Source: Legionella tucsonensis (GTDB taxonomy: Bacteria > Pseudomonadota > Gammaproteobacteria > Legionellales > Legionellaceae). Taken from it: DNA of 64,000 bases. The DNA lies in the NCBI RefSeq assembly GCF_001468035.1, contig NZ_LNZA01000001.1, forward strand, positions 1,013,020 through 1,077,019, given 5' to 3'. Below the pieces are notes generated by a model. The model saw nothing but the letters and a program-made list of their open reading frames with translations, was not told the DNA's origin and ran no database searches. Position 1 is the stretch's first letter. Every line of letters begins with the position of its first letter. A program made the position numbers and the translations under genes. Of the stretch, positions 59,911 through 64,000 are shown in pieces.

Positions 59911-61431
59911 ATGGGTTCAAGATCTAGGCATGCCAAAATTTCATTATTTAGCGCAACAGCACTTTCTGCTACAGCTATGATTGGTTCTGGATGGCTCTTT
60001 AGTGCTCAGTTAAACGCTAAAATTGCAGGAAATTACTCTTTTCTTGCATGGGTTCTGGCAGCATTATTGGTAATGGCGGTTGGGCTGTGTCTTGCGCAAG
60101 TCGCATCAATCTACCCAGTGCGTGGGGCAACTGCTCGGTCCAGTGCGTTGTCACACAATAGCATTTTTGGCATGCCTTTTGCTTTTGCCAATTGGTTTGG
60201 ATTAATGGTAACGATCGGTACCGAAGCTCAAGCGACTACACAATATTTAGCTGCCGCAATTAAAAGTAATGTTTTAATCGCGGATAATGTCCTGACGATT
60301 TACGGTAAATTATTTGCATTGAGTATCTTGGTCATTTATTTATTTATTAATTATTTTGGTGTTAAGTTATTAACCAAAGTTAATAATACAGTTACGGTAA
60401 TAAAAATTATTAGCCCAATTTTTACTATTGCTATTTTCTTGATTATGCGCTTTGACACCAGCAATTTTACCTTGGGTACAAATTTTCAATACGGAATTGG
60501 CTCAGCAATTACTTCAATTATTTCCGCTGGATTAATTTATTCTTACAACGGATTTCAATTAGCAGTAGCTTTTGCCAGTGAGATAGAAAATCCAAAACGA
60601 AATATTCCTCTCTCAATCATTCTTTCAATTGTAATTGTGATGTTGGTTTACATGCTGTTGCAATTGTCTTTTATGGGTGCTGTGCCCCATAGTATGTTAG
60701 CGAGTGGTTGGAGTAGCCTTAATTTTCATTCGCCTTTAATTAATTTAGCAATGTTGCTCGGAGTAAATTTCTTAGCAATGATCTTGATTACTGATAGTAT
60801 CGTTAGCCCATCAGGTACAGGGTACTCTTATTTAGGTGGTGCTTCACGAATGTTCTACGCGATGGCTAAAGAGGGCCAAATGCCAAAGAAAACCATTGGT
60901 AAATTACATCCTGAATATAATCTATGTCGCCGCTCCTTGCTTATCAACTTTACGCTCACTGCACTATTTCTCTGGAATTCCGATAGTTGGGCCTCATTAA
61001 TGGTGATTGTAACCGGCTATCATTTAATTGGATATATGGCAGCTCCGATCAGCATGGGGGCGATTAGACCGAGTACCAGATTATTTGGATTAATAGTCTT
61101 TTGTATCCTTGGGCTCATGATGAGTACATTACCTGCCAATGATTTTCTAAAGATGAACTTGTCGATTTCAATTTTGATGGTAATTTACGGAGCAATACAG
61201 ATTGCGCGTCGAATGAAGGCAACAACATTATTAGTATTATCAGCGCCGTTTCTAACTTATTTGTGGTTAATTTATTTTTATCAAAATATTTATTATATTC
61301 TGCTCGTATCAGCTCTTTTTTATGCATTAATTACACATAAAGAATACGTCAAATTATGTAAAGAAACTCAATTGATTGCTGATGATGCAGCTGATATTGC
61401 AGTAAATGTCAATCAAGCTCAGCGAGCATGA
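59911..61431 (+). CDS. APC-superfamily amino acid / polyamine permease
   Basis: This is a 506-residue inner-membrane protein with 12 or more helices. The first-helix motif ATALSATAMIGSGWLFSAQL is the unwound substrate-binding segment of APC transporters. The helix 6 region (TSIISAGLIYSYNGFQLAVA) is followed by the conserved loop ASEIENPKRNIPLSIILSI, another family mark. The substrate cannot be told. Legionella, which feeds on amino acids, has many such permeases. The gene stands alone, and its stop lies 42 bases from that of the convergent methyltransferase. Confidence 0.9.
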   Translation: MGSRSRHAKISLFSATALSATAMIGSGWLFSAQLNAKIAGNYSFLAWVLAALLVMAVGLCLAQVASIYPVRGATARSSALSHNSIFGMPFAFANWFGLMVTIGTEAQATTQYLAAAIKSNVLIADNVLTIYGKLFALSILVIYLFINYFGVKLLTKVNNTVTVIKIISPIFTIAIFLIMRFDTSNFTLGTNFQYGIGSAITSIISAGLIYSYNGFQLAVAFASEIENPKRNIPLSIILSIVIVMLVYMLLQLSFMGAVPHSMLASGWSSLNFHSPLINLAMLLGVNFLAMILITDSIVSPSGTGYSYLGGASRMFYAMAKEGQMPKKTIGKLHPEYNLCRRSLLINFTLTALFLWNSDSWASLMVIVTGYHLIGYMAAPISMGAIRPSTRLFGLIVFCILGLMMSTLPANDFLKMNLSISILMVIYGAIQIARRMKATTLLVLSAPFLTYLWLIYFYQNIYYILLVSALFYALITHKEYVKLCKETQLIADDAADIAVNVNQAQRA

Positions 61432-61473: not shown

Positions 61474-62091
61474 CTAACATTTTTCAGCTACAATAAAGTA
61501 TTTATGCCAATGTTTCATAGAGTAGCCTAATGCATCTGCTTCATCACGTTCTTCCTCCTCAAGCAATTCGATTTTAAACTGAAGAAATAACTGATGTAAT
61601 TCTTTGTAACTCAAAAATGTCATATCGGGTCTTTTATTTTTACTCCAATCATCATTTATTCCAAAAAAGGTCCCAGAAAATAGTCCGCCTGGGCGTAATG
61701 TTTTTAAAATCAATTTCCAAAGCTTATAAAAAAATTCTGGTTTTAAAAAGGGGAGACTATAACTTGCGTTAATTAATTGGGACATCGGAAGAGAAGTTAA
61801 TGACTCAAATGAAGCAATCTTTGTCTTGAGTTTATTTTTTAATGATTGAGGGCAGGAAGATAATAAAATGGATATTGCATCAGTTTGAGAATCAATAGCT
61901 AGAACTGACCAGTCATTTCTTAAAAGCTCAAGAGAATCTGAACCAGAGCCGCATCCAAGATCAATCGCTAATTTTGGAAGGTCAAATTTATTCCTACAAT
62001 GAAACAATTCAATTGCTTTCATTAAAGTTTTTCTAGGAAGAGTCTTTTGCTTTGTAATTTTATAATAATTAATCCAATTTTTATTATCCAT
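61474..62091 (-). CDS. Class I SAM-dependent methyltransferase of the peptide cassette
   Basis: The 205 residues form a Rossmann methyltransferase. The SAM-binding motif I is LAIDLGCGSGSDSLELL (about 41-57), the acidic loop is VLAIDSQTDAI, and the later strand is LRPGGLFSGTFFGI. The fold resembles TehB-type small-molecule methyltransferases, but the substrate is unknown. ATG 62091 has AGGGA 8 bases upstream. It is divergent from a 29-codon peptide gene across 101 bases that contain a perfect palindrome, so both may be controlled together. The protein could modify the peptide, or could serve in detoxification. Confidence 0.85.
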   Translation of the reverse strand: MDNKNWINYYKITKQKTLPRKTLMKAIELFHCRNKFDLPKLAIDLGCGSGSDSLELLRNDWSVLAIDSQTDAISILLSSCPQSLKNKLKTKIASFESLTSLPMSQLINASYSLPFLKPEFFYKLWKLILKTLRPGGLFSGTFFGINDDWSKNKRPDMTFLSYKELHQLFLQFKIELLEEEERDEADALGYSMKHWHKYFIVAEKC

Positions 62092-62107
62092 ATTATGCTT
62101 CCCTGGC

Positions 62108-62127
62108 TAGTTACCAATTGGTAACTA
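62108..62127. promoter_or_regulatory. Perfect 20-bp palindromic operator candidate
   Basis: TAGTTACCAATTGGTAACTA reads the same on both strands over all 20 bases. It lies between the divergent methyltransferase and peptide genes. On the plus side a possible -35 TTGACT (62129-62134) begins one base after it, with TATACT at 62150 (15-base spacer). An HxlR-type regulator encoded at the other end of the cassette is the natural candidate ligand. Confidence 0.65.
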
Positions 62128-62192
62128 ATTGACTGATTAATAGTGCTTTTATACTCTTAATAATGAATTTGTAACCCAAAAGGAGAATCATT

Positions 62193-62282
62193 ATGAAAGA
62201 AAAAATTATCAAAAAAATCGTTCGAGGAAAAGTATTAAAAAAAAGCAAGGGATGGTGTGGGCCTGGTACCTGTGTTGGATAA
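62193..62282 (+). CDS. Short peptide gene, 29 residues, Cys/Gly tail (candidate modified-peptide precursor)
   Basis: ATG 62193 has an excellent ribosome binding site (AAAGGAGAATCATT), and the frame ends at TAA 62280-62282. The first 20 residues are strongly basic (MKEKIIKKIVRGKVLKKSKG) and form a likely amphipathic leader. The tail is GWCGPGTCVG, with two Cys four residues apart in a Gly/Pro/Thr setting. Leader-plus-short-core layout, the hairpin after the gene and the neighbouring SAM enzyme and GRDP-like gene suggest a ribosomally made, post-translationally modified peptide. I know no family that matches. An unmodified signalling or antimicrobial peptide is the main alternative. Confidence 0.6.
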   Translation: MKEKIIKKIVRGKVLKKSKGWCGPGTCVG

Positions 62283-62291
62283 TTAAATTGT

Positions 62292-62323
62292 ATGCATCAT
62301 ATTGAACATAAAATATGATGCAT
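62292..62323. terminator. Perfect 12-bp hairpin after the peptide gene
   Basis: ATGCATCATATT (62292-62303) and AATATGATGCAT (62312-62323) form a perfect stem with an 8-base loop. It begins 10 bases after the peptide stop and 27 bases before the next gene. There is no T-run, so it is more likely an attenuator or RNA-stability element that favours the peptide message over the downstream gene. Confidence 0.6.
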
Positions 62324-62349
62324 TGAATTAAACTTATCGGGTCTAAATT

Positions 62350-62787
62350 ATGTACTGTCCTAATCTTGATGAATTAATACATTATAAAAATAACAAAATT
62401 ATTTATCGATACAATAAAGATTATCCTCATGCGACAATGCATGCGGAAGCTGCTTTAAGAGAGCTAATGAAGTTTATTTGGCTCTGTTTAAAGCATAAGT
62501 CAGATAAAAAAAATAATCCTTCGAATGTATTACTCGACTTTGCTTGCACCATTCATCCAGAAATGTGCGATATTGATAACATGTGGCATACTTTTCTTTT
62601 ATTCACGAAAGATTATCATGAGTTTTGCAGTAATTACCTTGGTGGAGTTTTCTTTCATCATGAGCCCATTGTAGATATGAATGACAATCACTTAGATGAA
62701 CGCTATGAACAGGAATTAACCTTATATTTATCCTATATATATGATAATTTGGGCGAGGATACATTGATGAGATGGTTTGAGCAATAA
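62350..62787 (+). CDS. GRDP-like (glycine-rich domain-containing protein-like) small protein
   Basis: The 145 residues match the core of the GRDP-like family (PF07173 as I remember it). The key stretch IHPEMCDIDNMWHTFLLFTK (about 68-87) is followed by DYHEFCSNYLGGVFFHHEP (to 106). His69, Cys73, Asp74, His80, Cys93, His103 and His104 could form a metal site. Bacterial members are small and of unknown function. The gene follows the peptide gene and hairpin on the same strand, so it is a candidate modifying or binding partner. Its stop touches that of the convergent HxlR gene. The ribosome binding site is weak. Confidence 0.7.
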   Translation: MYCPNLDELIHYKNNKIIYRYNKDYPHATMHAEAALRELMKFIWLCLKHKSDKKNNPSNVLLDFACTIHPEMCDIDNMWHTFLLFTKDYHEFCSNYLGGVFFHHEPIVDMNDNHLDERYEQELTLYLSYIYDNLGEDTLMRWFEQ

Positions 62788-63195
62788 TTACAAATTTCGT
62801 GTTTCTGTAAATTTATCTTCAGCACGCATTATCCTATTCATATTTTTCTCGGTCCATGTTGTTAGTGAATTAAGAATAGTACCCAATTCTTTTCCTAATG
62901 GGGTTATTGAATACTCAACTTTCATAGGCAATACTGGAAACGAGCACTTAGTTATAAAACCGAAGCGCTCTAATTTCATTAATGTTTGGGTTAACATTTT
63001 TGGAGAAATTCCACCAATTTTGCGCTTTAGCTCCCCAAAGCGAAACGGTTTATTTAACAATATATTAATGATTAAAATTGACCATTTATCACTAATTTTT
63101 TCTAATATATTATGTGATGGACATTGTTCATTATATACAGAGAAATTTTTATTAGGCATGGGGTAAAGGTCATTAATAGTGGAAATAGTAAGCAT
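62788..63195 (-). CDS. HxlR-family winged-helix transcriptional regulator
   Basis: The 135 residues have the HxlR layout: a conserved Cys (Cys25 in YNEQCPSHNIL), ISDKWSILIINILLNKPFRF, GELKRKIGGISPKMLTQTLM (the recognition helix region) and YSITPLGKELGTIL. Such regulators sense reactive electrophiles or oxidants through the N-terminal Cys, or other signals. It ends directly against the GRDP-like gene, with no intergenic base. The probable target is the palindrome at 62108. The start could be ATG 63195 or the Met 12 codons later, as neither has a strong ribosome binding site. Confidence 0.88.
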   Translation of the reverse strand: MLTISTINDLYPMPNKNFSVYNEQCPSHNILEKISDKWSILIINILLNKPFRFGELKRKIGGISPKMLTQTLMKLERFGFITKCSFPVLPMKVEYSITPLGKELGTILNSLTTWTEKNMNRIMRAEDKFTETRNL

Positions 63196-63337: not shown

Positions 63338-64000
63338 CTAAGGGGTAAAATTCTCGATCTCTGTTTGCACTTGAGGACTCGTAGGGTTCGCATTTCCCGA
63401 AATGACCTGCTTCTCAAAAAATCTATCTTTTCCTCGTTGTTTCACTGTACTTAAACTGAGGCGCTCCACCTTTTTTTGCTCCAGTAACAGATTAACAACT
63501 TGCGTGAGACGGGAAACCATTTTATGAATATCAATAAATTGCGTATATCCGTAATGTGCAGTAACACGAATATTGTTAGGAGGACGTACATCAATTTCAA
63601 ATTGCCCTAATTTATTTGATTGTTTTAATCCAGTTTCTATCTGCCTGACATCGCTAATTTCTTTAACACGAAAAACCAGCATAGCGCCTCGTCGCTTAGG
63701 ATCCACAGGTGTAATCCACTCAATTTTATCACCTAAAAACTGTTGCAGGAGCGCATACATATAGCGAGTAAGGCATTCTGATTTAGCAATTAATTTATCC
63801 CAACCAATTTGGCTCATTGTTTTCATATAGGTTTTTACTGGAGCAAGGGCAACAGGGGAGGGATTGCTGCATCTGAATGCCCAAGCACCTTTTTGCATCA
63901 TAATTTTTGCATCAAAATCATCGATTAATCCGAAGATTTTCTCTGAAGCTGCTGCTTTCCATCCCTGAATGGGCGGGTATTTTCCCAAATCTGTATTCTT
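63338..64000 (-). CDS. Kynureninase-like PLP enzyme, partial (N-terminus beyond window)
   Basis: The frame is open to base 64000 without a start, so about 220 C-terminal residues are visible. The stretch FRCSNPSPVALAPVKTYMKT resembles the FRISNPP region of kynureninases. RGAMLVFRVKE and the C-terminal RVTAHYGYTQFIDIHKMVSR match their small domain (IRVAPVPLYNSFHDVYKF in human). Kynureninase cleaves kynurenine to anthranilate and alanine. The PLP lysine lies outside the window, and a related aminotransferase of class V cannot be excluded. The tail after about residue 190 (KVERLSLSTVKQRGKDRFFE) is charged and less conserved. Confidence 0.75.
   Translation of the reverse strand, partial: KNTDLGKYPPIQGWKAAASEKIFGLIDDFDAKIMMQKGAWAFRCSNPSPVALAPVKTYMKTMSQIGWDKLIAKSECLTRYMYALLQQFLGDKIEWITPVDPKRRGAMLVFRVKEISDVRQIETGLKQSNKLGQFEIDVRPPNNIRVTAHYGYTQFIDIHKMVSRLTQVVNLLLEQKKVERLSLSTVKQRGKDRFFEKQVISGNANPTSPQVQTEIENFTP

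Follow-up and report, generated by a model that had tools for sequence, protein, structure and literature searches.

In borosins, the core peptide is fused C-terminally to the acting protein in some members and is separate in others. The MNIO (DUF692) type of ribosomally synthesized and post-translationally modified peptides (RiPPs), with methanobactins and bufferins, has Cys-containing precursors, few core genes and a link to metals, and such RiPPs are known in Legionella, according to a 2025 survey (PMC12452194). Among the plant GRDPs (PF07173/DUF1399), GRDP2 carries at its C terminus a Gly domain in which Cys residues are interspersed, the consensus being [CG]GGGCGG[GC] (PMC4299439). We analyzed a locus in a 64,000-nucleotide stretch of Legionella tucsonensis DNA (C1:1013020-1077019 of genome G000, hereafter the window), where a precursor-like peptide gene of 29 aa (62193-62282, plus strand) precedes an open reading frame (ORF) for a GRDP-like protein of 145 aa (62350-62787, plus strand). 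We propose, with a probability of roughly 0.6, that the two genes constitute a compact RiPP-type biosynthetic unit whose class-defining component, the GRDP-like protein, is dedicated to the peptide and most probably acts as the enzyme modifying its Cys-containing core. The sequences themselves show purifying selection on the peptide, a conserved leader and a variable Cys core, the recurrent pairing of the two genes, Cys-tailed fusions, and the conservation of an operator and a hairpin. The logic of such a RiPP system is familiar; the class-defining protein would be new.

We compared the locus to these systems. As in borosins, cores of the GRDP-like family are either separate or fused C-terminally, but the GRDP-like protein matches no methyltransferase family. 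Unlike an MNIO locus, the window stretch contains no match to MNIO (PF05114), and by eye the leader does not resemble a Sec signal peptide. With the plant GRDPs the family has in common a region with D-x2-WH and H-x-P, as seen through an intermediate protein (L200), whereas the window protein is a stand-alone domain that falls below PF07173 detection and has its peptide encoded separately. TIGR04222 membrane proteins provide another likeness: in one large protein (L206), a GRDP-like region precedes a TIGR04222 domain (118 bits), and the protein also has a Gly/Cys tail; the window protein, by contrast, is a small single domain. In a further long protein (L208), a GRDP-like region is also accompanied by a Gly/Cys tail. 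The main text of the MNIO survey contains 0 occurrences of GRDP and DUF1399 (PMC12452194), and our search of the open-licence literature found no paper that connects RiPPs with GRDP-like proteins.

Sequence comparison shows the 29-codon ORF to be a genuine gene. Its ribosome binding site AAGGAG (62180-62185, plus strand) is located 7 bases 5' of the ATG, and across 16 loci, comprising only those with a C.PGTC tail and including the window, pooled pairs gave a pN of 0.155 and a pS of 0.584, a ratio of 0.27, as expected for an encoded short precursor under purifying selection. The window peptide differs from that of L049 by 8 silent and 2 replacing changes, from that of L045 by 5 and 3, and from that of L048 by 4 and 3. 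The peptide consists of the leader MKEKIIKKIVRGKVLKKSKG and the core GWCGPGTCVG, with a putative border between them. A chance ORF is ruled out by the pN/pS ratio together with the pairing described below, and the locus is more than chance because of this ratio and because the operator arms are fixed in all 16 loci while the centre varies. A preliminary description of this DNA had listed a methyltransferase gene, a palindrome, this peptide gene with its strong ribosome binding site, a hairpin, the GRDP-like gene and an HxlR regulator, and had likened their layout to that of a RiPP locus. All six parts were found at or near the positions it gave, and both the reality of the peptide gene and the RiPP-like layout are borne out by conserved short Cys-tail ORFs beside GRDP-like genes in Legionellaceae-type genomes and in several phyla.

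GRDP-like proteins occur in 88 of the 143 genomes of the window's family. We fetched 60 loci besides the window and counted 57 GRDP-like genes for pairing (L071, L090, L099 and L100 stand outside the count). A peptide was scored if it had an ATG with a Shine-Dalgarno sequence, 20-50 aa, a hydrophobic leader pattern and a Cys in its last 20 residues, and lay at most 400 bases upstream. Such a peptide stands beside 41 of the 57 GRDP-like genes, the window's included, versus 1 of 534 control genes taken from these loci, a contrast obtained with a rule composed after the family had been seen and from loci related to one another, so that its nominal P value should not be read literally. Ten additions by eye (L067, L068, L069, L075, L076, L078, L079, L092, L093 and L095) raise the count to 51 of 57 loci; single-Cys or opposite-strand peptides were added by scans beyond the first Cys-filter pass, and in L068, L069 and L093 the peptide lies just downstream on the opposite strand. 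Several divergent GRDP-like copies of about 30% identity also have a peptide, for example MTKEEMICRIVRYVTQ...CCG, which ends at or just inside the GRDP start. The peptide is thus conserved in relatives that keep the GRDP-like gene. Genome G000 itself has four GRDP-like genes (window, L068, L081 and L085), each with its own, different peptide core. Two similar tandem peptides lie near one GRDP-like gene in L119, L145, L154 and L070. Broken or truncated GRDP-like copies are present in G016:C44 (L100) and G012:C36 (L096), and L100 retains a peptide-like Cys-tail ORF upstream.

Across these peptides the leader MKxxxIxKIxxxK is mostly conserved while the tail varies. The tails include GWCGPGTCVG, GYCGGGICRP, GFCGPGTCVH, GWCRPCTSIG, KCKCCRGVG, KSCHPCIGCA, KCAQCKHGCHPVPCAGQCGV, HACGICGMCN, NLCCW and others, with Cys as the most constant residue of the cores. 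The preliminary description had envisaged a fixed CxxxxC tail, and this does not hold, since the tail is hypervariable across relatives. Tail type follows the GRDP tree: in a tree of 58 proteins, of which 39 rows were used and 19 were uncounted, the 7 multi-member types need 6 changes, the minimum, compared with a mean of 21.4 after shuffling, a result that near copies favour. The gene neighbors are less constant. HxlR is present in 21 of 61 loci, BLAST-clustered relatives of the methyltransferase in 13 of 61, and another neighbor family, whose single tested member is a LysR regulator, in 7 of 61. The six-part cassette suggested earlier is ruled out as the unit by the HxlR and methyltransferase counts; because the neighbors vary across loci, the constant unit is the peptide with the GRDP-like protein.

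We next consider loci outside named Legionella. A scan of one genome per species (84,980 species) returned 324 stretches that encode relatives, of which the best 80 were kept and 39 taken; the rest were Legionella or Legionellaceae-type records, broken copies or near-duplicate Pseudoalteromonas loci. At 29 of the 39 loci, a leader-plus-Cys peptide was recognized by eye within about 1.3 kb, in records including Babeliales, Bacteriovoracaceae, Oligoflexia, Bdellovibrionaceae, Flavobacterium, Pedobacter, Saprospiraceae, Marivirga, Uabimicrobium, Shewanella and Pseudoalteromonas, among others. A leader profile built from 28 Legionellaceae-type peptides placed GRDP-adjacent peptides at ranks 1-7 of 3973 short ORFs in the 39 loci, and such peptides fill 13 of the first 15 ranks. 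Conservation of the leader with variation of the core is therefore found here too, with the profile recovering only part of the peptides; as it leaves out many distant ones, common descent of all peptides is not established, and the leaders are alike by eye. In six Pseudoalteromonas loci, the peptide gene lies downstream of the GRDP-like gene.

Neighbors at such loci are of a biosynthetic kind. Peptidase_C39 ABC exporters are found in L174, L147 and L155 and not in L175 (3 of the 4 proteins tested), HlyD in L174, a methyltransferase and a P450 after a Pseudoalteromonas peptide, a P450 after L098, CsiD after L067, and a leucine carboxyl methyltransferase beside L073. In the Shewanella locus L174 (5286-6558), three similar peptides with an ISGG motif precede two tandem GRDP-like genes, which are followed by HlyD and the C39-peptidase ABC exporter. 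Five Bacteroidota loci (L171, L172, L176, L182 and L224) share the order of a protein of about 310 aa, a TonB receptor and a DUF4374-type protein after the GRDP-like gene; this order was clustered in four loci and annotated in the fifth (L224), with Pfam run on L182 and L224 only. The genes in L182 encode a Pfam-less protein, a TonB receptor and a DUF4374-type protein just below threshold (24.7 versus 25 bits), and on an Aureibacter plasmid (L224) the same order comprises DUF4374 at 37 bits and is preceded by genes for CobN, ExbB and DUF2149. Siderophore binding is described for proteins of the DUF4374 type, XusB among them (PMC13142918). The gene order would suggest that a metallophore-like product is taken up. 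The core HCSNCGHC is common to the peptides of Filimonas, Pedobacter and Aureibacter.

In other relatives the Cys tail is part of the GRDP-like protein itself. Among 398 sampled genomes of the phylum, including the window's own, 24 had a match, and at least 3 Cys residues within the last 60 were present in 22 of 29 GRDP frames versus 21 of 115 other frames from the same stretches; the control frames are partly spurious, and the 29 include one frame of the window's genome and two from Shewanella, none of them with a Cys tail. The fused tails are of the types SCGPGTCGASTNCQG, TAYCAGPHIGK repeats, CHVPSSCACRVPGACK and GGGCGGGD, and one of them, SCGPGTCG, has CGPGTC in common with the window core. 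Two proteins (L199 and L213, G454) have many C-terminal TAYCAGPHIGK or TAFCAGPHA repeats, resembling a multi-core precursor in cis. A GRDP-like protein of 232 aa encoded on an E. coli plasmid aligns with the window protein across 97% of the query at 27.6% identity and ends in SVCGCSGKGCGAGCSCNSR; genes for an ABC transporter and a JmjC-type protein come next. This GRDP-ABC-JmjC operon (L225:4896-8121, 3226 bases, plasmid pAVS0947-D) is present at 80% or more of its length in one piece in 29 of 5426 E. coli genomes, with all 100 matching places on plasmids. Many other E. coli matches cover only a 210-base end piece, and some records label the plasmid protein as a glycine-rich domain-containing protein or UCP032817.

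What kind of protein acts at these loci was examined by family searches and residue conservation. Neither the peptide nor the 145-aa protein matched a Pfam or NCBIfam family at E up to 1, and the latter matched 0 Pfam families at E up to 10. The name GRDP-like, used in the preliminary description, is reached via L200, which matches both the window-family profile (E 3.7e-9) and PF07173 (27.7 bits, cut-off 22.7); the name stands as homology through this intermediate and not as a direct match of the window protein. Pfam searches with 57 members gave scattered weak matches with no agreement, PF07173 not being among the matches listed (25 of 29 families). The PF07173 profile had no match in G000, where the controls were silent too and the negative is therefore uninformative, and gave weak sub-threshold matches in 6 of 19 whole genomes. 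A search of phages gave no match. Residues Asp-76, Trp-79, His-80, Phe-82, Tyr-89, Phe-92, His-103 and His-104 are invariant in 57 sequences, and the motif D..WH....[TS]..Y...H.P occurs in 103 of 107 matching frames. A Cys at position 93 is found in 53 of 58 sequences; being frequent but inconstant, it is unlikely to be catalytic.

From these patterns we infer a mechanism. The 29-residue precursor would comprise an amphipathic leader helix (about residues 1-19), recognized by the GRDP-like protein, and the Cys core GWCGPGTCVG, which would be altered at a predicted active site, perhaps a metal site, formed by the invariant residues Asp-76, Trp-79, His-80, His-103 and His-104. This prediction rests on residue conservation. 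In fused relatives, where the core lies at the C terminus of the GRDP-like domain, the protein would act in cis. The product would probably be a small thiol-based peptide with metal or redox activity.

Regulation may be exerted at two elements. Upstream of the peptide gene, the palindrome TAGTTACCAATTGGTAACTA (62108-62127) is the sole perfect 20-bp palindrome in the window, compared with a mean of 0.1 in 10 Markov sequences, and its arms GTTAC-N6-GTAACTAATTGAC are invariant in 16 of 16 loci, with or without the methyltransferase, while the centre varies. Fixed arms with a variable centre, as for a dimer's operator placed over a -35-like box, suggest an operator, likely the HxlR site; promoter-like hexamers TTGACT and TATACT with a 15-bp spacer follow at 62129-62155 (plus strand), by consensus resemblance only. 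The HxlR-type regulator (62788-63195, minus strand; PF01638, 87 bits) is convergent with the GRDP-like gene, and its stop codon abuts that of the 145-codon ORF with zero spacing, as had been described; its start codon is unsure, with relatives 118-167 aa long. HxlR proteins are repressors that include redox and electrophile sensors. In addition to its HxlR domain, the regulator of the window scores 74 bits with the model of the RrpB redox regulators but stays below their cut-off of 175 bits. HxlR may hold the window promoter at the palindrome and release it under thiol stress. The second element, a 12-bp hairpin between the peptide and GRDP-like genes (62292-62323, arms 62292-62303 and 62312-62323, plus strand; folding z = -4.1), was compared in 11 of the 16 loci, with L058, L059, L062, L064 and L065 omitted as their hairpin sequences differ. 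In these, 93% of cells are paired and 4 pairs have both sides changed versus 1.5 in shuffles, the number of further pair types being no higher than in shuffles. The hairpin could keep the precursor more abundant than the GRDP-like protein. The divergent methyltransferase gene (61474-62091, minus strand) would encode an optional, accessory tailoring or protection enzyme; its assignment as SAM-dependent methyltransferase stands on a Methyltransf_25 match barely over the cut-off (28.9 versus 27 bits), with TehB at 24.5 bits.

The chemistry might instead be carried out by an enzyme encoded elsewhere, for example an MNIO, leaving the GRDP-like protein only a leader-binding or carrier role for a RiPP precursor. 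As the preliminary description had held, no known maturase was seen among the six window-locus proteins (Pfam; four also NCBIfam), nor was a Lan synthetase or SPASM enzyme in a search confined to the locus, and YcaO (PF02624) had no match in G000, with matches in 4 of 9 genomes tested. Four MNIO (PF05114) genes lie elsewhere in G000, at C1 594141, 1924940, 1932944 and 2202128. MNIO genes occur in 70 of the 88 GRDP-bearing Legionellaceae-type genomes, so that a maturase in trans is possible there; MNIO substrates contain Cys, and the TIGR04222 domain of L206 is in part tied to MNIO by the 2025 survey (PMC12452194). Yet 18 of the 88 genomes, some of them incomplete or with weak GRDP matches, have no MNIO match. 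G125 and G127, both 100% complete, carry a window-type GWCGPGTC peptide without MNIO, albeit with YcaO, and G123, G090, G105 and G058 match neither MNIO nor YcaO. No such enzyme was seen linked to the pair, and we regard an origin of the chemistry in trans as rather unlikely.

It is also unlikely, in our view, that no covalent change takes place and that peptide thiols and GRDP His residues constitute a two-part metal-binding or relay system, like a small metallothionein with a holder. The constant Cys of the cores, the His in the invariant set, the Cys-rich tail fusions and the TonB/DUF4374 neighbors of Bacteroidota would suit such a relay, but biosynthesis better accounts for hypervariable cores behind a conserved leader and for the neighboring C39 exporters, P450, methyltransferase and CsiD. 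We find it quite improbable that the unmodified peptide serves as a toxin or bacteriocin, with the GRDP-like protein as its antitoxin or immunity protein: the Cys tail is fused to the GRDP-like domain, the core and not the leader is variable, and uptake receptors are adjacent, even though the amphipathic cationic leader, several distinct pairs within one genome, scattered contexts and the small E. coli plasmid could be read that way. A short ORF followed by a covarying hairpin upstream of a gene might further recall a regulatory leader peptide that controls the GRDP-like gene by translation. This explanation is largely refuted, and we consider it extremely improbable, because L068, L069 and the six Pseudoalteromonas loci have the peptide gene on the downstream side and the Cys tail is elsewhere fused in cis; the same two observations rule out a translational attenuator.

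A number of observations weigh against the GRDP-like protein being a maturase of paired precursors. To our knowledge, no modification, catalysis or metal binding has been described for any family member. The window protein had no PDB entry by sequence, and neither an exporter nor a protease is among the six window-locus proteins scanned, a linked exporter or leader peptidase being common in RiPP systems though not essential to them. The frequency of MNIO genes in GRDP-bearing genomes and the YcaO genes of G125 and G127 count here as well, as does the after-the-fact origin of the pairing rule. Neither the rule nor inspection by eye revealed a peptide at 6 of the 57 loci (L083, L084, L091, L096, L097 and L104), and some cores have one Cys only (GWCHVPK, ARLCF). 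Among the 39 distant loci, no peptide was seen by eye at 10 (L118, L149, L150, L151, L164, L169, L170, L176, L178 and L183; in L118, L150 and L183 the GRDP-like gene lies at most 250 bases from the stretch or contig start), and in L119 over 1 kb and an intervening gene separate the upstream peptides from the GRDP-like gene. Most Bacteroidota and all Pseudoalteromonas peptides fall outside the first 60 rows of the leader profile (L184, L179, L168 and L172, the last at rank 37, are exceptions), as do those of L160, L161, L167, L175 and L181, among others. Finally, 2 of the 4 Arabidopsis DUF1399 proteins have no Gly/Cys domain, as given in the report on the plant GRDPs (PMC4299439).

If the GRDP-like protein is nonetheless the maturase, a family known so far as a domain of unknown function turns into a new class of peptide-modifying enzyme spread over several phyla, and a small E. 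coli plasmid carries a self-contained version of it in cis. The family would then be a natural library, since its cores have little but Cys in common, and the role of the Gly/Cys tails of plant GRDPs and of the Cys tails of MNIO-less TIGR04222 proteins becomes testable. A wider and decidedly tentative extension is that GRDP-like domains, whether of Legionella, E. coli plasmids or plants, form an ancient, undescribed enzyme class modifying tail cysteines in trans or in cis, which would define a new RiPP class with metal- or redox-active products and give plant DUF1399 its missing function.

The most similar named loci to the window's GRDP-like gene are those of Legionella anisa, bozemanae and parisiensis. 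An Rfam scan of the window at the gathering threshold returned tRNAs only. Upstream of the methyltransferase gene, an amino acid permease (59911-61431; PF13520, 110 bits) is conserved in six loci including the window, and downstream the C-terminal part of a kynureninase-like gene (63338-63988; KYNU_C, 43 bits), cut by the window end, belongs to a family conserved in the same six loci.

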